NCBI RefSeq assembly: GCF_002155965.1
Contig: NZ_MUMH01000104.1
Coordinates: 1 to 47,724 of the forward strand
Source of the DNA: Allokutzneria sp. NRRL B-24872
GTDB taxonomy: Bacteria > Actinomycetota > Actinomycetes > Mycobacteriales > Pseudonocardiaceae
Direction of reading: 5' to 3'
DNA length: 47,724 nucleotides
Numbering within the stretch: position 1 is the first letter of the stretch; every line of letters starts with the position of its first letter. Below are positions 15,894 through 26,463 of this stretch, piece by piece. The position numbers were made by a program, and so were the translations under genes. The notes under the pieces were generated by a model. The model saw only the letters and a list, made by a program, of their open reading frames with translations, was not told where the DNA came from and ran no database searches.

Positions 15894-16162
15894 GCCGCCA
15901 TGGTGACGCAAGTTCCTGCAAGACGGCCACATTTCTTGCGCGCGCTTGCGGTTGCTGCGTTCGGCGTAAGCCGGTCCCGAGGGTAGGTGTCGGCCGAAAG
16001 CAGGGTTGCCGGGGTCAAAAGGATGACAGTGTCTGGACTCGGCGCACCCCGGTTTGTTCAGATTCCAGGCCGGGAATTCCAAGCCCCGGGACGACTTACC
16101 CGAACGGCCTACCAGCTGAATATCGAGTGCCCGTTACCTGATGTGAGGATACTCGCCGCGAG

Positions 16163-16337: not shown

Positions 16338-17468
16338 TTGACCGCCGTTTTCGACCGTGCCCGCGTCGAGGACATCGACGAGCTGCTGCGGCTCTACCGA
16401 CGGGTCTACGGCGCCGCCTACGCACTCCCGCTCGGCACCGAGCCCGCCGTGATGGCCAGGGAGATCGCCTCGGAGCTGACCACCTGGCTGGTTGCCCGCG
16501 ACGAGCGCGGTGAGCTGATCGCCTCGATCGTCGGCAACGTGGACCCGGTCGACCGGCTGGGCAAGATGCAGGGCCTGGTGGTGGACCCGGCGTGCCGCGG
16601 CGGGGGCATCGCGCAGCACGCGGTCAGCTCGATGAGCGACGAGATGCTGGCAGACGGCCGGATCGACTCCGTCTACGCCACCGCGCGCACCACCTCGACC
16701 GCGCCGCAGCGGATCTGCCTGCGCGCCGGGTTCCGCGCGCTGGGCTTCTTCCCCAACCTCCGCAAGGCCGCCAAGCACGAGACGATGGTGCTGCTGGCGC
16801 GCCACCGGGACGGCGTCATCGAGCGCAGGCACCCGGTCGAGCGCGTCCCGGCCAGCCTCGGCCCGTTCGTCGAGGCGCTGGACACCGTCGCGCGCATGCC
16901 CGTGCGGCCGGAACTGGTGCCGGACAAGGAAGTTCCCGCGCAGCAGGCGCCCTCCCCCGGCGTCGAGCTGATCAACGCGCCCGAGTTCGTGCTGCGCCGC
17001 TTCGCCGAGGTGGTGGAGCCGGACCGCGCGTTCTACCCGTTCCACAAGCCGAACATGCTGCTCGCGGCGGCCGACGGCTCGTACGAGGTGTACACGCACC
17101 TGAGCATCAGCGACGGTTACTGCACGCTGATCGGCGCCGCGCCGAACCCGATGGCCGTCGACCCGCACATGGACCAGCTGATCGGCCAGCTCGGCAACTT
17201 CGGCGCCTTCTACGTGGAGACGCTGGCCCCGCTGGACGCCTTCGACGAGCTGTCCTCCCTGCTGGCGCACGGATTCCTCCCCGCCGCCGCCTACCCGGCG
17301 ATGCGCAGGGACGGCGAGGGGTTCCGCGACTACGTGATCATGGCGCGGACCATGCAGCCGCTGGACTTCCGCGGCCTCGCGATCGACGCGGCGTTCCGGC
17401 CGTTCGTCGAGCAGTACATCGACCTCTGGAAGCAGAAGTACCTCAACACGATCGGGGTGTACCGGTGA
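16338..17468 (+). CDS. GNAT-family acyltransferase, first gene of the lux-type operon
   Basis: The product has about 376 residues. The N-terminal half is a GNAT domain with the CoA-binding loop (MQGLVVDPACRGGGIAQHAV) and a final Y-A-T-A-R-T/GFRALGF region near residues 110-135. The C-terminal half (after about residue 195) is less conserved and may be a degenerate second GNAT domain. A TTG at 16338 is preferred because GGAG lies five bases upstream; a GTG at 16317 in the same frame has no good site. The stop overlaps the LuxE-type gene (GTGA). Its likely role is to transfer an acyl group to an amine or protein within the pathway set by the downstream enzymes; the acceptor is unknown. Confidence 0.75.
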   Translation: MTAVFDRARVEDIDELLRLYRRVYGAAYALPLGTEPAVMAREIASELTTWLVARDERGELIASIVGNVDPVDRLGKMQGLVVDPACRGGGIAQHAVSSMSDEMLADGRIDSVYATARTTSTAPQRICLRAGFRALGFFPNLRKAAKHETMVLLARHRDGVIERRHPVERVPASLGPFVEALDTVARMPVRPELVPDKEVPAQQAPSPGVELINAPEFVLRRFAEVVEPDRAFYPFHKPNMLLAAADGSYEVYTHLSISDGYCTLIGAAPNPMAVDPHMDQLIGQLGNFGAFYVETLAPLDAFDELSSLLAHGFLPAAAYPAMRRDGEGFRDYVIMARTMQPLDFRGLAIDAAFRPFVEQYIDLWKQKYLNTIGVYR

Positions 17469-18625
17469 GCAGCTACCTCGGACCGGTCACGGTGCCGAAC
17501 CCCTCGGCACTCGCCGAGGTCCAACGCCTGTGCGATCTCGCGAAGCCCTACGACGTGGGCCCGGACGCCGACGCGTTGTTCGTCTCCGCGATGAACGAGT
17601 CCAACCGCTGGCACGCCGAGCGCTCACCGTTCTTCAAGAACCTCTGGGACGCGCGGGAACCGCTGGAGTCCATAGAGGACATCGCGCGGCAGCCCTTCGT
17701 GCACGCCAACTTCTTCAAGATGCACGAGGTCGTCTCGATCCCGCGCGAGGACGTCAAGCTGCACGTGACCTCCTCCGGAACGACCGGGCAGAAGTCGCAG
17801 ATGTTCTTCGACGACTGGACGTTGCGCTCCGGTCAGCGCATGGTCGCGCGGATCTTCGAGCACTACGGCTGGATCGACCCGAGCCGCCCGGTGGACTACC
17901 TGATCTACACCTACCAGCCGAAGCCCGGCGTGAACCTCGGCGCTTCCTTCACCGACCACTACCTGTGCGACTTCGCCCCGGTGCGGCGCGTGGAGTACGG
18001 CCTGCCCAGCACGGGCACCGGCCACGAGTTCGACGCTTTTGGCGCTGTGCGGTCACTTCTGCGCTCGGCGGAGGACGGCGTGCCGGTGCGGATCTTCGGG
18101 TTCCCGGCATTCCTGTCCTTCACCCTGGACCGCATGCGCTCGCTCGGCCTGCCGCCGGTGGACCTCTCCGACGACTCGCTGGTGCTCTTCGGCGGCGGGT
18201 GGAAGGGCAACGCGGACAAGCAGATCAGCAAGCGCGAGCTGTACGCGAAGATCACCGACCAGCTCGGCATCCCGGACGAGCGCATTCGCGACGGCTTCGG
18301 TTCGGTCGAGCACTCCGTGCCCTACATCGAGTGCGCGCGGCACAACATGCACGTGCCGGTGTGGTCGCGGGTGCTGATCCGCGACGTGCGCACGCTGGAG
18401 CCGGTTCCGCACGGAGAACCCGGCTACCTCCAGTTCGTCTCGCCGTTCATCACCTCCGCGCCCGCGCAGAGCGTGCTCATGGGTGATCTCGCGACGCTGC
18501 ACACCCCGGCCGAGTGCGGCTGCGGCCTGGACACGCCGTGGTTCGAGATCCGCGGCCGTGCCGGGTTGAGCCGCAACAAGAGCTGCGCCATCGCCGCCGC
18601 CGAACTCCTGAAGGACAAGTCGTGA
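17465..18625 (+). CDS. LuxE-type acyl-protein synthetase (adenylating)
   Basis: The 386-residue protein has the LuxE hallmarks. The ATP-binding loop SSGTTGQKS is at 103-111. The FGSVEHSVPYIEC motif follows at about 280-292. Near the C-terminus, NKSCAIAA places a cysteine at residue 374 of 386. In Vibrio LuxE a cysteine close to the C-terminus (Cys364 in V. harveyi) carries the acyl group before transfer to LuxC, so the position fits. The reaction is acid + ATP to acyl-AMP, then an acyl-thioester. The start overlaps the GNAT stop and the end overlaps the LuxC-fusion start, so stoichiometric translation is expected. The chain length or type of acid is unknown. Confidence 0.88.
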   Translation: MSSYLGPVTVPNPSALAEVQRLCDLAKPYDVGPDADALFVSAMNESNRWHAERSPFFKNLWDAREPLESIEDIARQPFVHANFFKMHEVVSIPREDVKLHVTSSGTTGQKSQMFFDDWTLRSGQRMVARIFEHYGWIDPSRPVDYLIYTYQPKPGVNLGASFTDHYLCDFAPVRRVEYGLPSTGTGHEFDAFGAVRSLLRSAEDGVPVRIFGFPAFLSFTLDRMRSLGLPPVDLSDDSLVLFGGGWKGNADKQISKRELYAKITDQLGIPDERIRDGFGSVEHSVPYIECARHNMHVPVWSRVLIRDVRTLEPVPHGEPGYLQFVSPFITSAPAQSVLMGDLATLHTPAECGCGLDTPWFEIRGRAGLSRNKSCAIAAAELLKDKS

Positions 18626-21141
18626 ACCAACACTACTGGCAGGGCGAGTGGGTCGAGGACGCCGAGGCCGACCGCCGACTGTCCACTTTGGAGGAAGCGA
18701 CGCAGGCGGTCCTGGCGAAGGAGCCGCTGAGCCCGCTGATCGTGATGGCGGCGGCGGAGCGCGTCGTCGCCCACCTCCAGAACCCGGAAAGCCCTGTGCG
18801 CCAGCGGCTCGCGCAGCGCCTGGTGGACTGGAGCGTGCCGTCGGAGGAGATCGAGCAGACGCTGGGCGGGCTCTCCGGAGCGCTGGCGCGGCCGACGATC
18901 GAGAAGAAGGTCGTCCGCGAGCTGGGCAGCGTCGACCCCAACCGCCTGGCGCGCTTCGACTTCCGCAAGCAGGTCTTCGAGGCGTGGGTGCCGGTCGGCC
19001 TGCTCGCGCACATCGCCCCGGGCAACGCGCCCGCGGCCGGGGCGCTGAGCTGCCTGGAGGGCCTGCTCTCCGGCAACCTCAACGTGGTCAAGACCAGCGG
19101 TGAGGACTCGCGCTTCACCGCCGAGCTGCTGTCCGCGCTGGCTGAGGCCGACCCGACCGGGCAGATCGCCGAGCGCGTGATCGTGCTGCACTTCTCCTCC
19201 AGCCGCCGCGAGTGGCTGGAGCGGATGTGCGCCCCGGCCGACGCGGTCGCCGCATGGGGTGGCGAGGAGGCCCTGGCAGGCGTCGCGTCGGTGCTGCGCC
19301 CGGGCTGCCGATTGGTGGACTGGGGCCCGAAGCTCTCATTCGCCTACCTGACAAGCGATTCCTGGTCGGACGAAGAGATCCTGCGCGCGGTCGCTGCGGA
19401 CGTCTGCGCGATGGACCAGCAGGCGTGTTCGAGCCCACAGGTGGTCTACCTGGACACCGAGAACGACGCCGAGGTCTTCGCATTCGCCGAGCGCTTCGCC
19501 GCCGTGTTGGACGACCTTGTGTCCACTGTGGAGCGTCGCGAGCCCAGTGCCCCGGAGTGGGCGGAGATCACCAACACCGTGCTCGTCACGGAGCTGGAGC
19601 AGCACCTCGGTCTCACGAAGGTTCACAAAGGCAACGACTGGCGCGTGCTGGCCGACACCCGCTCAGCGCTGCGTGCTTCGCCGCTCTACCGCACGGTGTG
19701 GGTTAAGTCTTTGGCGCGCAAGGAGATCTCCGCCGTTCTGCGCCCGATGCGACGCTACCTCCAGACGGTCGGGCTCGGCGCGAACCGCCAGGACACCGCA
19801 GTGCTCACGCGGGGCCTGATCGCGGCGGGCGTGCAGCGCGTCACCGTGCCGGGCGCGATGCTCGGCAGCTACGACGGCGAGCCGCACGACGGTGTGTACG
19901 CGTTGCAGCGCTACAGCCGCCGCGTGGACGTGCAGCTCGACGAGCGGTTCAACCGCGACGCGTGCCTGGACGACCTTGTGAGTGCACGGCAGCTGCCGCC
20001 GCCGACGGTTGAGGTCACCACGAAGGCGCACTTCGACCAGCTCCAGGACGACCTCAGCCGCGCGGAGGTGTTCTTCCGCAGCGGTGGCACGAGCGGCGCG
20101 CCGAAGCTGTCCGCGTTCAGCTGGGCCGACTACGACGAGCACATGCGCCACGGCGCCGAGGGCATGATCGCGGCCGGGTTCGACCCGCGCACCGACCGCA
20201 CGATGAACCTGTTCTTCGGCGGCCAGCTCTACGGCGGTTTCCCGAGCTTCTTCTCCGTGCTGGAGCGCCTTGAAGCCGTGCAGTACCCCATGGCCGGCCA
20301 GCAGAACGAGCACGAGATGGTCGCCAAGTCCATTGTGGACAACAAGGTGGACACGCTGCTCGGGATGCCGAGCTACCTGCTGCGCCTGTTCGACGAGGCG
20401 GGCGAGACGCTGCGCGCCTACCGTGGCGTCCGCAAGATCTTCTACGGCGGTGAGCACTTCAGCGAGCAGCAGAAGCGCTGGTTCGCCGAGGAGTTCGGCG
20501 TCGAGCTGATCCGCTCCGCCGCGTACGGCAGCGTGGACGGCGGCCCGCTGGGCTACCAGTGCCTGGAGTCGCCGTCGCGGGTGCACCACCTCTTCGCGGG
20601 CATCCAGACCCTGGAGATCCTGGACCAGGAGGCAGACCGCCCGGCGGCTCCCGGCGAGACCGGTCGGCTGGTCTTCACCGCGCACACCCGGCGCGGGCAG
20701 CGGCTGGACCGCTACGAGATCGGCGACCTCGGCCGCTGGCTGGACGAGGACTGTCCCTGCGGCAGAAGGACTCCGCGCTTCGAGCTGCTGGGAAGGGTCG
20801 GCGACGTGTTCCGCGCGGGCGGGCACTTCCTCAACTACCGCAGGTTCGTCGCGGCGGCTGGTGAAGCCTTCGACTACACCGGCGAACTCCAGATCGTGCT
20901 GGACGAGGTCGGTGACCAGGAGCGGCTGACGATCCGGCTGGACCGCGAGCGGGCGCCCGCCGACACCGACAAGGTGTGGACGGAGGTCGTGCAGCGCTAC
21001 GCCGACCTGGAGACCTCGGCCGTGCGGGACCAGTTGGTGTCGCTGCACATCGAGCTGGTCGGCGCCGAGGACTTCAAGCGCACCAGCACCAGCGGAAAGC
21101 TCATCGCCGTCGTGGACAGTCGGGAGCGCAACAGTGCTTGA
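18622..21141 (+). CDS. LuxC-type acyl reductase fused to a LuxE/PaaK-like adenylating domain
   Basis: The protein has 839 residues. Residues of about 1-455 are a LuxC acyl-CoA/acyl-protein reductase: the NADPH-site region APGNAPAAGALSCLEGLLSG (132-151) is followed by the active-site cysteine C269 in DQQACSSPQ. Residues of about 470-835 are a second adenylating domain with the ATP loop SGGTSGAPK (487-495) and a YGSVDGG motif, both as in LuxE/PaaK proteins. Classical LuxC ends near 480 residues, so the fusion is unusual. It should reduce a thioester to an aldehyde with NADPH, with the fused domain loading it or activating a second acid. Starts and stops overlap both neighbours. Confidence 0.88.
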   Translation: MNQHYWQGEWVEDAEADRRLSTLEEATQAVLAKEPLSPLIVMAAAERVVAHLQNPESPVRQRLAQRLVDWSVPSEEIEQTLGGLSGALARPTIEKKVVRELGSVDPNRLARFDFRKQVFEAWVPVGLLAHIAPGNAPAAGALSCLEGLLSGNLNVVKTSGEDSRFTAELLSALAEADPTGQIAERVIVLHFSSSRREWLERMCAPADAVAAWGGEEALAGVASVLRPGCRLVDWGPKLSFAYLTSDSWSDEEILRAVAADVCAMDQQACSSPQVVYLDTENDAEVFAFAERFAAVLDDLVSTVERREPSAPEWAEITNTVLVTELEQHLGLTKVHKGNDWRVLADTRSALRASPLYRTVWVKSLARKEISAVLRPMRRYLQTVGLGANRQDTAVLTRGLIAAGVQRVTVPGAMLGSYDGEPHDGVYALQRYSRRVDVQLDERFNRDACLDDLVSARQLPPPTVEVTTKAHFDQLQDDLSRAEVFFRSGGTSGAPKLSAFSWADYDEHMRHGAEGMIAAGFDPRTDRTMNLFFGGQLYGGFPSFFSVLERLEAVQYPMAGQQNEHEMVAKSIVDNKVDTLLGMPSYLLRLFDEAGETLRAYRGVRKIFYGGEHFSEQQKRWFAEEFGVELIRSAAYGSVDGGPLGYQCLESPSRVHHLFAGIQTLEILDQEADRPAAPGETGRLVFTAHTRRGQRLDRYEIGDLGRWLDEDCPCGRRTPRFELLGRVGDVFRAGGHFLNYRRFVAAAGEAFDYTGELQIVLDEVGDQERLTIRLDRERAPADTDKVWTEVVQRYADLETSAVRDQLVSLHIELVGAEDFKRTSTSGKLIAVVDSRERNSA

Positions 21142-22372
21142 TCAGCTCGTCAAACTCGTCCGTCACAGCTCGCCGTTCTACGCGGAGCTGTACGGGGACC
21201 TGCCGGACGCGCCCGCGCTCGAAGCGCTCCCCGTCGTGGAGCACGCCGCGTACTGGGCCGCGAACACCTTGCAGGACAACAAGCTCCGCACAGGCGAGCA
21301 CGTCGGCGGGATCATCTTCAAGAGCGGTGGCACCACGAGCGCGCCCAAGGTCTCGGTGTACACGCGCGCCGAGTGGCGGGAGATGAGCGAGACCTTCTCC
21401 AAGGGGCTCGTCGCCGCCGGGCTGCGCGAGGGCGACCGCGTCGCGAACCTGTTCTACGCCGGGGAGCTGTACTCCAGCTTCATCTTCACCCTGAACGCGT
21501 TGCAGGACGCGCCGGTGGACACAGTGCAGCTGCCGATCGCGGGCTCCGCGACGCAGGAGTTCGTCACCAACGCGCTGCTGGAGTTCGACGCGACGGTGCT
21601 CACCGCGCCGCCCACCTCGCTCTGCCAGCTCGCCCAGCACGTGATCGACACCGTCGGCTCGCTGCCGCTGATCCACCTGGTGCTGTTCAGCGGTGAGGCG
21701 TTCTACGGCGATCAGCGCGAGCTGCTGGCCTCGGCGTTCCCGAACGCCGCCGTGCGCTCCATCGGCTACGCCAGCGTGGACGGCGGCATCATCGGAGCGC
21801 CCGTGCACGGCGAGGACGACGCGCGCGTCCACCAGGTCTACCCCGGCCGGATCATGGAGATCCTGGACGAGGACACCGGAAACCCCATCGAGGAGCCCGG
21901 CCGCGCGGGGCGGATCGTCGTCACCGACCTGGTCCGGACGCTCCAGCCGGTGCTGCGCTACCCGGTCGGCGACCGCGCCGAGTGGGTGGACTTCGGGGCT
22001 CGGACCTTCCGCCTGCTCGGCCGTTCCGGCGAGGGCGCGCGCGTCGGCCCGGTGACCCTGTACCTGGACGACCTGCTGGAGATCGTGCGCGATGCGGCCG
22101 GCGGTCAGGGAATCACGGGCGGCCAGGTCGTGCTTCGCCGTCACCGGGCCAAGGACCAACTGGTACTGCGTCTCTCCGGGGATGTGACGGGCACCGACGA
22201 GCTGACCGAAGCGATCGCGAAGCGGCTCGACGAGACCCGGCCGATGTTCGCCGACCACGTGGCGCGCGGGCTGATCCAGCCGCTCGCGATCGAATGGGTC
22301 GGCACCACCGAGCTGACCACCAACCCGCGCACGGGCAAGCTCGTTCGCCTGATCGACGAGCGTGGCGCATGA
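21134..22372 (+). CDS. LuxE/PaaK-like AMP-forming acid:ligase
   Basis: The 412-residue protein has the ATP loop SGGTTSAPK (64-72) and a GYASVDGG motif, matching the adenylating domain of the preceding fusion more closely than the first LuxE. The C-terminal part includes a TTNPRTGKLVRL segment typical of the final lysine motif in PaaK-type ligases. It probably activates a carboxylic acid as the adenylate. The GTG start overlaps the upstream stop by 8 bp. It is the third adenylating unit of the operon. Confidence 0.82.
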   Translation: MLDQLVKLVRHSSPFYAELYGDLPDAPALEALPVVEHAAYWAANTLQDNKLRTGEHVGGIIFKSGGTTSAPKVSVYTRAEWREMSETFSKGLVAAGLREGDRVANLFYAGELYSSFIFTLNALQDAPVDTVQLPIAGSATQEFVTNALLEFDATVLTAPPTSLCQLAQHVIDTVGSLPLIHLVLFSGEAFYGDQRELLASAFPNAAVRSIGYASVDGGIIGAPVHGEDDARVHQVYPGRIMEILDEDTGNPIEEPGRAGRIVVTDLVRTLQPVLRYPVGDRAEWVDFGARTFRLLGRSGEGARVGPVTLYLDDLLEIVRDAAGGQGITGGQVVLRRHRAKDQLVLRLSGDVTGTDELTEAIAKRLDETRPMFADHVARGLIQPLAIEWVGTTELTTNPRTGKLVRLIDERGA

Positions 22373-23595
22373 CCACCTCCACGCGGCAACGGCCGCTTCT
22401 GTTGCGCAACAAGAACTTCGCGCTGGTCTGGATCGGCCAGGTGCTCAGCCAGGGCGGCACCCGGATCTACCAGATCGCGCTGCTGTGGTGGCTGCTCGGC
22501 CAACTCCCGGAGAACGTGCGTGGCGTCGCATCCGGCGCGTTCCTGGTGATGGGCGCGCTGCCGCCGCTAATGCTGATGCGCCACATCGGCAAGCTGATCG
22601 ACCGGATGCCCAGCCGCAAGGTGATGCTGCGCGCCGAGCTGACCGCCTGCGCCGTCGTCACGGTGCTCGCCGTTTTCGCTTGGCAGGACGCGGTTCCGGT
22701 GTGGTCGGTGTACGTGGTGGCGCTGATCGTCGCGGTGTGCCAGGCGTTCTTCGACCCGTGCCTGCTCAAGGCGATGCCGGAGCTGGTGGAGGGCAAGGAC
22801 GTCGAGCGCGCGGTGGGCTTCGGCACCTCCACGCAGTCCGTGGCGAACTTCGCCGGAGCGGCCTTCGGCGCGGTCCTGCTGGCCACGGTCGGCTTCACCG
22901 GCGCGGTCCTGATCAACGCGGCGACCTACGCGGTGGCCGCGGCGTGCCTGTACTTCGCGCGCTTCACCCCGCTGCCCGCCTCGCCGCCCCCTCCTCCGGG
23001 CGAGGAGGCCCCGCAGGAGCACAAGAGCACGTGGAAGTTCCTGGGCTCCATGCCTTCGGTGCGCCCGCTGCTGGTGTGCTTCGCGACGGCGAACTTCTTC
23101 TCCGCGCCGACGCTGCTGGTGCTGCCGCTGTACACCAAGCTCGTGCTGGAGCGGGAGGCCGGGACGCTCGCGATCCTGGAAGCGGCGCTGTGGCTGGGTT
23201 TGCTGCTCGGAGCGTTCAGCGCGGCACACATCCCGACGGCGGGCCGCACGGTGCGCTTCGGAGCGCTGTGCATCGCCGCGTTCGGGATCTTCCTGGCCAT
23301 TCCGGGTCTGGTGGCGAACACGGTGATCTACGCCGTGGTGCTCGCGTTCGCCGGGCTGTGCCTGGGCGTGTCGAACGTGAAGTTCACGACGCTGTTCCAG
23401 ATGGCGGTGCCGAACGAGGTCAAGGGCCGGTTCTTCGCCGCGCTCCAGGCCGCGATCAGCTCGACGTTCCCGGTCGCCTTCCTCGCCTTCGGAGCGTTCG
23501 GCGACGCCATCGGCCCGCAGCTGTTGACCCTCGTCCAGGGCGCGGGGTTGCTGGTGTTCGCGTTCGTCCTGGCTCGCGTGCCAGAACCCAAGTGA
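22369..23595 (+). CDS. MFS transporter, probable exporter of the operon's product
   Basis: The 408-residue protein has about 12 membrane segments. It has the NFALVWIGQVLSQGGTRIYQIAL start and the GKLIDRMPSRKVMLRAEL loop of the drug/enterobactin-type MFS exporters, plus a Pro-rich central loop with PPPPPG. The ATG overlaps the ligase stop (ATGA). Its place as last gene of a biosynthetic operon suggests export of, or self-resistance to, the product. Confidence 0.88.
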   Translation: MTTSTRQRPLLLRNKNFALVWIGQVLSQGGTRIYQIALLWWLLGQLPENVRGVASGAFLVMGALPPLMLMRHIGKLIDRMPSRKVMLRAELTACAVVTVLAVFAWQDAVPVWSVYVVALIVAVCQAFFDPCLLKAMPELVEGKDVERAVGFGTSTQSVANFAGAAFGAVLLATVGFTGAVLINAATYAVAAACLYFARFTPLPASPPPPPGEEAPQEHKSTWKFLGSMPSVRPLLVCFATANFFSAPTLLVLPLYTKLVLEREAGTLAILEAALWLGLLLGAFSAAHIPTAGRTVRFGALCIAAFGIFLAIPGLVANTVIYAVVLAFAGLCLGVSNVKFTTLFQMAVPNEVKGRFFAALQAAISSTFPVAFLAFGAFGDAIGPQLLTLVQGAGLLVFAFVLARVPEPK

Positions 23596-23641: not shown

Positions 23642-25513
23642 GTGAAGCTTGGTGTACTGGGGATCGCGATCGCGCTGGCGGGGGCTGTGTTGAGCCCCGC
23701 CGCCGCGCCCGCCAAAGCGGCAGCGGTGGAGCCGTGCACGCGTGTGTCGACCGGCCCGGCGCAGGTCGTCGTCGACAACGCGACGCGGCTGAGGCTCGGG
23801 CTCAAGGGCTGGCCGGACACCGCGTTCGGCTTGCTGCCGGAGGGCAACAGCAACTACAAGTTCCTCTCGACGGCCGCGCTGGCCAGTTCTGGCGGGCAGG
23901 CGCAGAGCGTCGCGGTCACGCGCGGCACGCTCGACAACCCCGTCGCGGGCGGCGTGGTCAGCATGAAGCCGGTGGTCGGGCTCGCGCCGCCCTACCAGTA
24001 CGGGGGCGGCGGGCCGGTGTACCGCGACCCGGGCAGCGGCTTGGTGCTGCACGTGCTGCACTTGGAGCGCCAACTGAGCCCGCAGCACCACTTCTACTCC
24101 GACCTGCACCTCGGCGTGCACGACCCGGCGTCGGGCGTGACCACGCTGCTCGGCGAGATCGTGGCTCCGGACATGGACTTCGCCACGGCCGACCAGCACG
24201 ACCTGACCGCCGACATCGGCACGTCCTCACTGGTGGCGCGTGACGGTTACTTGCACGTGTACTTCCCGGACTACTCCTTCGAGAACGGCGCTTTCAAGGC
24301 GACCGGGCTCTCCGTCGCGCGCGCTCCGCTGACCGAGGTCATCGACGCGGCGAAGCGGAAAACCGTGACGCCGTGGGCGAAGTACCACAACGGCGCGTGG
24401 AACTCCCCCGCCAAGAACGGCCCGTCGACGTCGCTGCGCGAGGCGGTCGGACCTTGGCACCCCAACGTCCTGCGCACCACGCGCGGCGGCACGGTCATGG
24501 TGGCGGGCAACAGCATCACGGAGTTCGACTTCTCGCACTCCGCGAACGGCATGACCGATTGGACGCCCCCGCAGCAGCTGTTCCGCGACCCGGAGCGCGG
24601 CAACGCCTACCCCACGGTCGTCGGGCTCGGCCCCGATCCTTCGATGGTGGACGACAAGTTCTACGTCTACTACATGCAGTGGGCCAAGGTGGGTGACTGG
24701 GCCGACGCCGTGGTGATGCGCCGCCTGATCACCTGCGTCGGCGGGCGCACCGCCGGGCAGAGCACGCTGACCGGCTACTCCAACGGCACGCAGAACCGCA
24801 CCACGACGGCTACCGAGCGCACCGCCGGTTTCGCTCCTGTGGAAGGAAAACTGTGGGGTCTCGCCGACGCTCCGGCCGACGGGACCACAGGAATCTACAG
24901 CTGCCTCAACGGGACCACCGACCAGTTCCTGTCGAAGGACCCGGGCTGCGAGGGCAAGCAGAACTCGATCCTCCAGACGGAGGGCTGGCTGTACAACACG
25001 CCGCCAACCGCCCCGTCGACGCCGTTGTACCGTTGCCGCGTAGGCGGTTCGCACTACACCGCGACCACGGAAGCCTGTGACGGCAAGGCTGGCGCGATCT
25101 CGGACGGTCTCCTCGGACACGCGCTCACCACGTCCAAGCGCGCGTTCTCCCGCTTCTACGACGGCCGCGAGCACTGGGACACCAGCGGCGCGGTCACCGC
25201 GCGCTACTCGTTGGAGCACCGCTACTTCCTGGAGAGTTCGGCCAAACCCGGCACGGTCCCGCTCTACGGCTGCTCCTACACGAGCGTCAAGGGGCTCAAC
25301 CACTTCACGTCGCTGCGCGAGGACTGCGAGGGGCAGACGAAGCACCGCGTCGAGGGGTGGATCTACACGGCCAAGCCGTCAGCGCCCTCCGTCGAGCTGC
25401 ACCGGTGCTACTGGAAGGACCAGGACGACCACTTCCTGTCGCCGTTCCGCAACTGCGAGAACGTGCCCAACCACGTCTACGAGAGCCAGTTCGGCTTCGC
25501 GCTCACCAGCTGA
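23642..25513 (+). CDS. Secreted beta-propeller protein with C-terminal Cys/aromatic repeats
   Basis: The 623-residue protein has a Sec signal peptide (to about residue 27, A-x-A-rich). Residues of about 35-360 resemble five-bladed propellers related to glycoside hydrolases (Y-x-Y-G-G-G-G-P-V-Y, HVYFPDYSFENG, DPSMVDDKFYVYYMQW). Residues of about 415-620 hold about four repeats with the pattern YxC...HF(L/T)S...C-E-G...GW(I/L)Y, resembling DUF5648-type repeats. It probably binds or processes an extracellular carbohydrate or wall polymer. It starts 46 bp after the MFS gene and could be read from the same transcript. The 3' end overlaps the terpene-synthase-like gene by 37 bp. Confidence 0.65.
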   Translation: MKLGVLGIAIALAGAVLSPAAAPAKAAAVEPCTRVSTGPAQVVVDNATRLRLGLKGWPDTAFGLLPEGNSNYKFLSTAALASSGGQAQSVAVTRGTLDNPVAGGVVSMKPVVGLAPPYQYGGGGPVYRDPGSGLVLHVLHLERQLSPQHHFYSDLHLGVHDPASGVTTLLGEIVAPDMDFATADQHDLTADIGTSSLVARDGYLHVYFPDYSFENGAFKATGLSVARAPLTEVIDAAKRKTVTPWAKYHNGAWNSPAKNGPSTSLREAVGPWHPNVLRTTRGGTVMVAGNSITEFDFSHSANGMTDWTPPQQLFRDPERGNAYPTVVGLGPDPSMVDDKFYVYYMQWAKVGDWADAVVMRRLITCVGGRTAGQSTLTGYSNGTQNRTTTATERTAGFAPVEGKLWGLADAPADGTTGIYSCLNGTTDQFLSKDPGCEGKQNSILQTEGWLYNTPPTAPSTPLYRCRVGGSHYTATTEACDGKAGAISDGLLGHALTTSKRAFSRFYDGREHWDTSGAVTARYSLEHRYFLESSAKPGTVPLYGCSYTSVKGLNHFTSLREDCEGQTKHRVEGWIYTAKPSAPSVELHRCYWKDQDDHFLSPFRNCENVPNHVYESQFGFALTS

Positions 25514-26463
25514 GCGTTCTCGCGCTGGACCCACTGCTGCGCCCCCGCGGTGAACTGGCGGAGGCGGTCTATGTGCCGGAGCAGCCGCTCGCCGTCGGCA
25601 AGGCCAAGGCCGAGCTCGACGGCGAGCGCGGGCACTTCGGTGATCGCCAGGTTCTCGAAGCGGCGCAGGCGTTCCGTGCCGAGGTTGTTCAGGATCTCGC
25701 CCGCGCGCTGCGACGAGCAGCCCAGGAACCGCGCGTACACGTTCACGCCGTTGTTGGTCTTCTCCGCGCGGCTCGCGTCCTCCTCGTAGCTCCACGCGTC
25801 CCACTGGAGCCCCAGTGTCTCGGAGAAGGCGTCCAGCAACGCGCGCATCGGCCACGTCGCGAAGACCTGCTGCGGCAGCTCGTCGTCGATCAGGTGCCGG
25901 ATCAGGTCGTGCGCCCAGTGCGCGCCAACGGTCCGCGTGCGCGTCGCCAGGTAGCTGCTCGGGTCCGGCACGCGGTTCTGGCAGAGGTTGGACAGCTCCT
26001 CCACGTGCGCGTCCGCACATTCCTGGAGGTGGCGGCGCAGGCGCTCGCGCAGCTCGTCGGGCATCGTGCGCGTGGTGCGGGGCCACAGGTCCGCCAAGCC
26101 GCGCTCCACCGCGTTGCCCGGTGTCAGCGACTCCGTCGTCGTGCACGCGGCCAGTCGGCGGGCGAGCAGCTTCGCCGCGCCGACGTCGCGTGTTCGCCGG
26201 AACTCGCCGAAGTGCTCGACCAGCGCGAAGCCCCAGATGTGCCACTCGCTGAGCAGGAACAACGCGGGCTCGGCGGCTTCGGGGTGGGTGTGCGCGGCGA
26301 AGGTGGCCGCGCCCAGCTCCTCGATGTCGTGCTCGGTCCAGAGCGCCTTGAGCATGCCCGTCCGGCGTGCCCAGTCCGTGGCGTGCGCCGCCGCTTCCGA
26401 CGTCCGGGGGTTGCTCCGCAGCGGGTAGGGCCGGTACATCTCCGGTCGTCGATACGCCGACAT
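25477..26463 (-). CDS. Class I terpene synthase homologue with degraded metal-binding motifs
   Basis: The 328-residue length and helical pattern match bacterial terpene synthases. The pyrophosphate-sensor segment SYLATRTRTVG (R175) is kept, as is the late WVQR segment. The aspartate-rich DDxxD motif is replaced by LVEHFGE (81-87), losing the first and last Asp. The second metal motif, normally N-D-x-x-S-x-x-x-E, reads W221-D-A-W-S-Y-E-E-D229, keeping only D222 and S225 with Asp for Glu. Ordinary ionisation by three magnesium ions therefore looks unlikely; another role or a different chemistry is possible. The ATG at 26463 is chosen for its AAAGGGG site. Distant neighbours give no substrate clue. 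Confidence 0.7.
   Translation of the reverse strand: MSAYRRPEMYRPYPLRSNPRTSEAAAHATDWARRTGMLKALWTEHDIEELGAATFAAHTHPEAAEPALFLLSEWHIWGFALVEHFGEFRRTRDVGAAKLLARRLAACTTTESLTPGNAVERGLADLWPRTTRTMPDELRERLRRHLQECADAHVEELSNLCQNRVPDPSSYLATRTRTVGAHWAHDLIRHLIDDELPQQVFATWPMRALLDAFSETLGLQWDAWSYEEDASRAEKTNNGVNVYARFLGCSSQRAGEILNNLGTERLRRFENLAITEVPALAVELGLGLADGERLLRHIDRLRQFTAGAQQWVQRENAQLVSAKPNWLS

Follow-up and report, generated by a model that had tools for sequence, protein, structure and literature searches.

A five-gene operon of Allokutzneria sp. NRRL B-24872 as a probable actinomycete counterpart of the leupeptin (leup) operon

The stretch of 47,724 nucleotides analysed here (contig NZ_MUMH01000104.1), referred to as the window, belongs to the genome of Allokutzneria sp. 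NRRL B-24872, which is assembled into 475 contigs of 8.19 Mb in total. It carries a run of five genes on the forward strand, encoding a GNAT acyltransferase, a LuxE-like acyl-protein synthetase, a fusion of LuxC with a ligase, a stand-alone PaaK-like ligase and an exporter of the major facilitator superfamily (MFS) (Table 1). Consecutive genes overlap by 4, 4, 8 and 4 bp. This arrangement had been proposed in a first-pass annotation made from the sequence, and the families it assigned are supported by Pfam and NCBIfam models. The AMP-binding scores of the two ligase units lie below the Pfam cut-off of 29.9 bits (28.6 for the fusion and 27.7 for the stand-alone ligase). The PaaK-type NCBIfam model paak_haloarch matches both units with E-values of 1.7e-21 and 1.1e-17, respectively, far under the equivalog cut-offs; the ligase part of the fusion also aligns to the solved PaaK structure 4r1l (1e-21), and the BagE/FevW models give weak matches to the ligase units. 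A consensus sigma-70 promoter was not found between positions 16050 and 24000, and three terminator-like sites occur in this interval where 3.0 are expected. The nearest relative at the operon locus is Allokutzneria sp. A3M-2-11 16 (92%).

Table 1. The five overlapping genes of the operon and the evidence for their assignment.
Feature	Position	Strand	Evidence
GNAT acyltransferase, putative LeupD counterpart	16338..17468	+	TTG start after GAAGGAG; Acetyltransf_1 (Pfam) 1.1e-6
LuxE acyl-protein synthetase, putative LeupA counterpart	17465..18625	+	LuxE (Pfam) 2.2e-26
LuxC-ligase fusion (839 aa), putative LeupB counterpart	18622..21141	+	LuxC (Pfam) 3.6e-84; AMP-binding 8.2e-7
Stand-alone PaaK-like AMP-dependent ligase, putative LeupC counterpart	21134..22372	+	AMP-binding (Pfam) 1.6e-6
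MFS exporter, proposed to export the product	22369..23595	+	MFS_1 (Pfam) 6.7e-28

The GNAT gene product (376 residues) features an N-terminal GNAT domain at about residues 5–140 and some 230 further residues of unknown fold. The acetyl-CoA motif, which we take to be (R/Q)xxGxG/A, is present as RGGGIA, and its central Gly is kept in 24 of 25 aligned rows, with L063 departing. LuxE features the P-loop TSSGTTGQKS and a C-terminal relay cysteine, C374. The fusion consists of a LuxC reductase domain (about residues 1–438) with the cysteine C269 and a PaaK-like ligase domain (about 440–839). Both C269 and C374 align with cysteines of the solved LuxC–LuxE complex 7xc6 and are invariant, the former in 25/25 and the latter in 26/26 aligned proteins. 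The features of PaaK-like ligases—P-loop, RYxxGD and C-terminal lysine—are all present in both ligase units of the window; the latter two are kept in 25/25 rows of each ligase alignment, and the P-loop is kept with some letter changes. The first-pass annotation is borne out in naming three adenylating units, an acyltransferase, the active-site cysteine of LuxC and an exporter as parts of one biosynthetic operon. Its suggestions of acid reduction through LuxE and LuxC and of a chain that is activated, condensed and reduced are likewise supported.

Luciferase (LuxA/LuxB), LuxD-like and electron-transfer families were absent from a Pfam scan of 35 of the 47 called window proteins, in agreement with the same annotation. 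LuxE and LuxC score far under their NCBIfam equivalog cut-offs (77 versus 550 and 85.9 versus 750 bits). With no luciferase or LuxD in the scanned part and with these scores, a role in fatty-aldehyde formation or bioluminescence was dropped. A role in anti-phage defence was dropped as well, since none of the five operon proteins was matched by PADLOC.

The gene set was compared in 31 stretches, window included. The four enzyme genes—GNAT, LuxE, fusion and ligase, here called the tetrad—occur together in 29 of them, or in 27 of 29 after dropping two duplicate genomes (the apparent same-genome pairs are L056/L011 and L060/L010). Counted singly, LuxE and the fusion are present in all 31 stretches, GNAT in 30, the ligase in 29 and an MFS protein of the same family in 11. 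The two exceptions are L065, where LuxE and the fusion are cut short and the remaining genes are missing, and L066, whose ligase match falls shortly past the end of the fetched stretch. Among eight relatives taken from genome contigs, the tetrad is complete in 8/8, and few or no other neighbours are common with the window or with each other, except in L004 and the pair L005/L006. In several loci, the ligase gene is inverted and apart from the other tetrad genes. In Streptomyces, the order ligase–MFS–GNAT–LuxE–fusion is found with the genes adjacent and on one strand in 18 of 20 loci (from 19 genomes, drawn from 44 with a full fusion), and the MFS gene in 20/20. The tetrad is also present on two Salmonella plasmids described below. 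As the set recurs in different genera and in two phyla, the operon is not a product of chance.

The most shared neighbours besides the MFS gene are the unannotated families F5 and F6 (11/31 stretches each) and S5 (6/23). F5 and F6 occur mostly in Lentzea-like loci; both are present in Crossiella L005, F6 in L006, and F5 in L043 and L048. A larger cluster was dropped, all three being taken as neighbourhood. Two loci show disrupted genes that may reflect either a frameshift or a sequencing error: the LuxE gene of Herbihabitans lies in two overlapping frames (L007:8851-10001), and the fusion of genome G239 is in two pieces (L064:8732-11205).

In Pseudonocardiaceae, matches at 1e-30 were obtained in 43 of 390 genomes: 28 carry a one-piece fusion of at least 751 residues, G239 carries the two-piece one, that of G238 is truncated, and 13 matches are partial. 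The operon is present in about 30/390 genomes of the family. In the genus sample taken to be Streptomyces, 45 of 392 genomes match at 1e-60; the fusion is full-length in 44 of them, whereas G787 has the LuxC part only. In the phylum sample, the count is 2/396, own genome included. Among 72,556 plasmid records, 10 match at 1e-20, and six of these cover at least 80% of the query, including records from Streptomyces, Streptantibioticus and two from Salmonella. A search of 5,426 E. coli genomes for the Salmonella operon gave no match at the sensitivity used. On the plasmid of Streptomyces sp. NBC_00158 (L043:15235-16602), three genes lie one gene from the leup-like operon and carry the annotation peptidase inhibitor family I36.

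The two Salmonella enterica plasmids, CP054717 (L041) and CP053580 (L042), carry one and the same operon in the order LuxE, fusion, ligase, GNAT, at 99.8% DNA identity over its full length; in CP053580, the GNAT gene is left unannotated. Identity to the window proteins amounts to 49% for LuxE and 39% each for the fusion and the ligase, and the GNAT proteins are connected by profile comparison (E 1.9e-5, probability 77.5%). Upstream of the operon in CP054717 lies an open reading frame of 121 residues (L041:10470-10835) that has no Pfam match and by eye looks like part of an MFS transporter. A ligase tree was built from 22 units, drawn from 11 of 25 aligned loci, together with an outgroup. It separates the ligases of the fusions from those that stand alone, each group having 11/11 rows and its own Salmonella member, and the split is supported at 100/100. 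From the sequences, both ligase types are orthologous, separately, to their Salmonella counterparts.

The leupABCD genes of Klebsiella michiganensis, Photorhabdus and Xenorhabdus are credited by citing papers to Li et al. 2020 (doi 10.1002/anie.202005506). In K. michiganensis CAV1374, leupABCD is placed at 315,353–321,183 with a transporter beside it, and the published primers include a forward one for leupA, which starts with ATG at 315,403, and a reverse one for leupB at 316,620–316,639 (PMC8283571). From these coordinates, the leupB reverse primer site lies 4,564 bp from the locus end. Provided that leupD ends where the locus is said to end, this span is exactly equal to the 4,564 bp from codon E23 of the Salmonella fusion to the stop of the GNAT gene. 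The leupB primer, read in frame, gives EQLKDH versus EPLHDT in Salmonella; of the two likenesses, the equal span carries more weight. The Salmonella operon measures 5,759 bp between the start of LuxE and the stop of GNAT, versus 5,781 bp from leupA start to locus end in Klebsiella; the difference of 22 bp would mean that LeupA is longer by about seven residues at its N-terminus. Because of the equal lengths and the primer reading, leupA may be equated with LuxE, leupB with the fusion, leupC with the ligase and leupD with GNAT, the letters being assigned from coordinates. The window holds the four clustered enzyme genes to be expected of leupABCD from the coordinates in PMC8283571, and its MFS gene corresponds by position to the adjacent transporter, which for Klebsiella is named in a figure legend of the same paper.

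Given this match, we consider it highly likely that the five genes form an actinomycete leup operon (order D-A-B-C plus exporter), predicted to make an N-acylated peptide aldehyde that inhibits proteases. Leupeptin, acetyl-L-Leu-L-Leu-L-argininal, or a close congener would be the favoured product, with leupeptin itself a narrower claim of moderate confidence. The gene count fits leupeptin, whose formation calls for a single acetylation, two peptide bonds, an activation step and a reduction. The first-pass annotation had deemed product and substrate not predictable; on present evidence this judgement is revised, as leup operons make acetyl-Leu-Leu-argininal. The operon is a real, conserved biosynthetic unit and very probably not an undescribed kind of chemistry. 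That annotation had stated that its view would fall if the operon matched a cluster whose product is characterised; the leup match is of this sort, made by way of a Salmonella intermediate and published coordinates. The leup cluster class is, moreover, already in known collections, since a region of type 'Leupeptin' is tabulated for Photorhabdus khanii (PMC12542766) and a MIBiG entry is cited in PMC10548850. An undescribed lux-like system was rejected on account of the leup match. Its more general form, a system with an unknown product that resembles leup in enzyme classes only, could draw on the fact that the leup link runs through Salmonella and published coordinates, but the exact 4,564 bp match, the same four genes, their order up to rotation and the separate orthology of both ligases render it very improbable.

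Several observations weigh against the leup assignment. The tie to the characterised operon runs via the Salmonella intermediate and consists of coordinates, one primer and gene content. Codon E23 was picked after the primer had been seen, and the peptide likeness alone is weak. The leupA primer is poorly matched in the Salmonella stretch (14/21 at best). The GNAT of the window is only 18% identical to that of Salmonella, and BLASTP returned nothing at 1e-3. In the ligase tree, counting the outgroup lowers the support for the fork of the fusion ligases to 93/97, and a warning of long branches applies, also to the Salmonella rows. In the LuxC-domain tree, the stand-alone LuxC of Streptomyces L045 falls inside the fused group, and the fused rows lie on one side of a branch in 0/200 bootstrap trees, so that a single fusion event is unsupported. 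Lastly, leupeptin of Streptomyces has been placed among aldehydes made by nonribosomal peptide synthetases (NRPSs) (PMC10548850, citing Maxson 2016), and antipain-like aldehydes including leupeptin have been tied to an antipain NRPS cluster in the strains of another study (PMC11212599). An NRPS route in some streptomycetes is compatible with a leup operon in others.

The same enzymology could yield a different N-acyl di- or tripeptide aldehyde, with other residues or another acyl group, which lies within the claim for the compound class. This appears rather unlikely. In its favour, identities of 39–49% to Salmonella for three genes and of 18% for GNAT leave enough room for changed specificity, leup operons are known to yield leupeptin, a lysine analogue and pyrazinones including a homoarginine-derived one (PMC11480411), and N-acyl peptide aldehydes of actinomycetes are described as diverse (PMC10548850). 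Against it stand the lack of a sequence pointer to another residue and the statement that numerous Streptomyces make leupeptins.

A proposed route to leupeptin starts from the observed enzyme classes, catalytic motifs and co-conservation; its substrates, step order and product are deduced from these. GNAT would act as an acetyl-CoA:leucine N-acetyltransferase and make acetyl-leucine. One PaaK-like unit would adenylate acetyl-leucine and couple leucine, and the other would adenylate acetyl-Leu-Leu and couple arginine; one bond would be made by the ligase domain of the fusion and the other by the stand-alone ligase, either way round. LuxE would then adenylate acetyl-Leu-Leu-Arg and load the peptide acid onto its own C-terminal cysteine. 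From there, the peptide acyl would move to the cysteine of LuxC, where NAD(P)H would be used to reduce it to the aldehyde, and the MFS protein would export the product. Three activities reportedly described in Streptomyces roseus around 1980, namely leucine acyltransferase, leupeptin acid synthetase and leupeptin acid reductase, would correspond to the genes found here. Conjugation is reported for S. roseus in the literature consulted, which fits the plasmid copies of the operon.

The enzymes might instead act on an aromatic or fatty acid by a GriC/GriD-like reductase, with the other ligases and GNAT converting a non-peptide acid into an amide or ester. The ligase plus reductase of grixazone biosynthesis offers a precedent (PMC10179220), and the weak BagE/FevW matches also count in its favour. 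A precursor pathway seems not to travel with the tetrad, the non-MFS neighbour families, which are unannotated, being present in at most 11/31 or 6/23 stretches. This reading is improbable.

Leupeptins were first found in actinomycetes and are said in the sources consulted to be made by numerous Streptomyces. Leupeptin mass features are reported from Streptomyces in PMC13273461, PMC11865988 and PMC13364919, whose pertinent passages leave leupeptin genes unnamed. An actinomycete leup operon was not found in the literature searched, in which subscription papers are thinly covered, and Li et al. 2020 may already name copies. It is tentatively proposed, at somewhat less than even confidence, that actinomycete leup operons are a main source of leupeptin in Streptomyces and relatives, where it has been known since 1969, and also that the number of PaaK-like units sets peptide length. 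In such a series, LuxE–LuxC alone would have zero ligases, an MFS–GNAT–LuxE–fusion operon one, with dipeptide aldehydes predicted, and the full operon two, with tripeptide aldehydes predicted.

The variant MFS–GNAT–LuxE–fusion without a stand-alone ligase is found in L117:8158-14499, L119:5195-11330 and L132:3034-9175 (the last on a contig of only 10.9 kb), and its fusions share 53–54% identity with the form on the Streptomyces plasmid of L043. Genome G1021 (L117) consists of a single contig, is listed as 100% complete and, at 1e-20, yields no ligase match besides the fusion's own. In G1074 (L119), the full operon is present elsewhere, as is one more relative at 41%, and G944 (L132) likewise holds the full operon, which leaves G1021 as the only clean case of the variant. 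Its predicted product, judged from gene content, is an acetyl-aminoacyl-argininal dipeptide aldehyde; acetyl-leu-arginal is among the N-acyl peptide aldehydes listed in PMC10548850. Two points are possibly new: that actinomycete leupeptin may come from this operon, and the variant with one ligase fewer, which may make dipeptide aldehydes. Leupeptin is a widely used protease inhibitor, and in the sources consulted the genes named so far are gammaproteobacterial, while two papers tie the Streptomyces compound to NRPSs. A compact operon in 44/392 Streptomyces and about 30/390 Pseudonocardiaceae genomes would make the question of its source directly testable, and a natural series of zero, one or two ligases offers a test bed for how carrier-free ligases set peptide length.

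Downstream of the operon, 46 bp 3' of the MFS gene, the window carries on the + strand a gene (23642-25513) for a protein of 623 residues without a Pfam match, which among the eight relative loci is present only in L004 (86%). It is followed on the − strand by a Terpene synthase family 2 protein (25477-26439; Pfam 3.5e-34; 82% identity in Allokutzneria sp. L004). LuxE–LuxC pairs also occur in other settings. On a Streptomyces europaeiscabiei plasmid (NZ_CP109155.1, L045:2886-11344), genes for MBL-fold and DUF692 proteins precede LuxE and an unfused LuxC, and YcaO and MFS genes are divergently oriented; this locus looks like a cluster for a ribosomally synthesized and post-translationally modified peptide with a reduction step. 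L133 and L134 hold the same pair (54–68%) without such neighbours within 19 kb. On the Chloroflexota plasmid CP069395.1 (L044:6868-9269), a LuxE–LuxC pair without ligase or GNAT lies about 3 kb from a heliorhodopsin gene.

Compared with known systems, the operon of the window is most similar to leup. Both feature four genes, discrete AMP-dependent ligases with a reductase—as also described for leupeptin of Xenorhabdus bovienii (PMC11212599)—a transporter beside them and, with letters assigned as above, the order A-B-C. The window differs by having GNAT first (D-A-B-C), so that the gene order is the same up to rotation, by a longer GNAT (376 versus 294 residues in Salmonella, where GNAT comes last), by overlapping genes, by an MFS gene at the 3' side and by its actinomycete host. 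With the LuxC–LuxE system of bioluminescence (7xc6), it has in common the cysteine relay from LuxE to LuxC and the reductase, both cysteines being aligned, but its LuxC is fused to a ligase, and luciferase and LuxD are lacking among the proteins scanned. GriC/GriD, a ligase and a separate reductase that form an aldehyde from an acid (PMC10179220), can be likened by description only: adenylation is followed by reduction to an aldehyde as proposed for the window, whereas the substrate is a single aryl acid.

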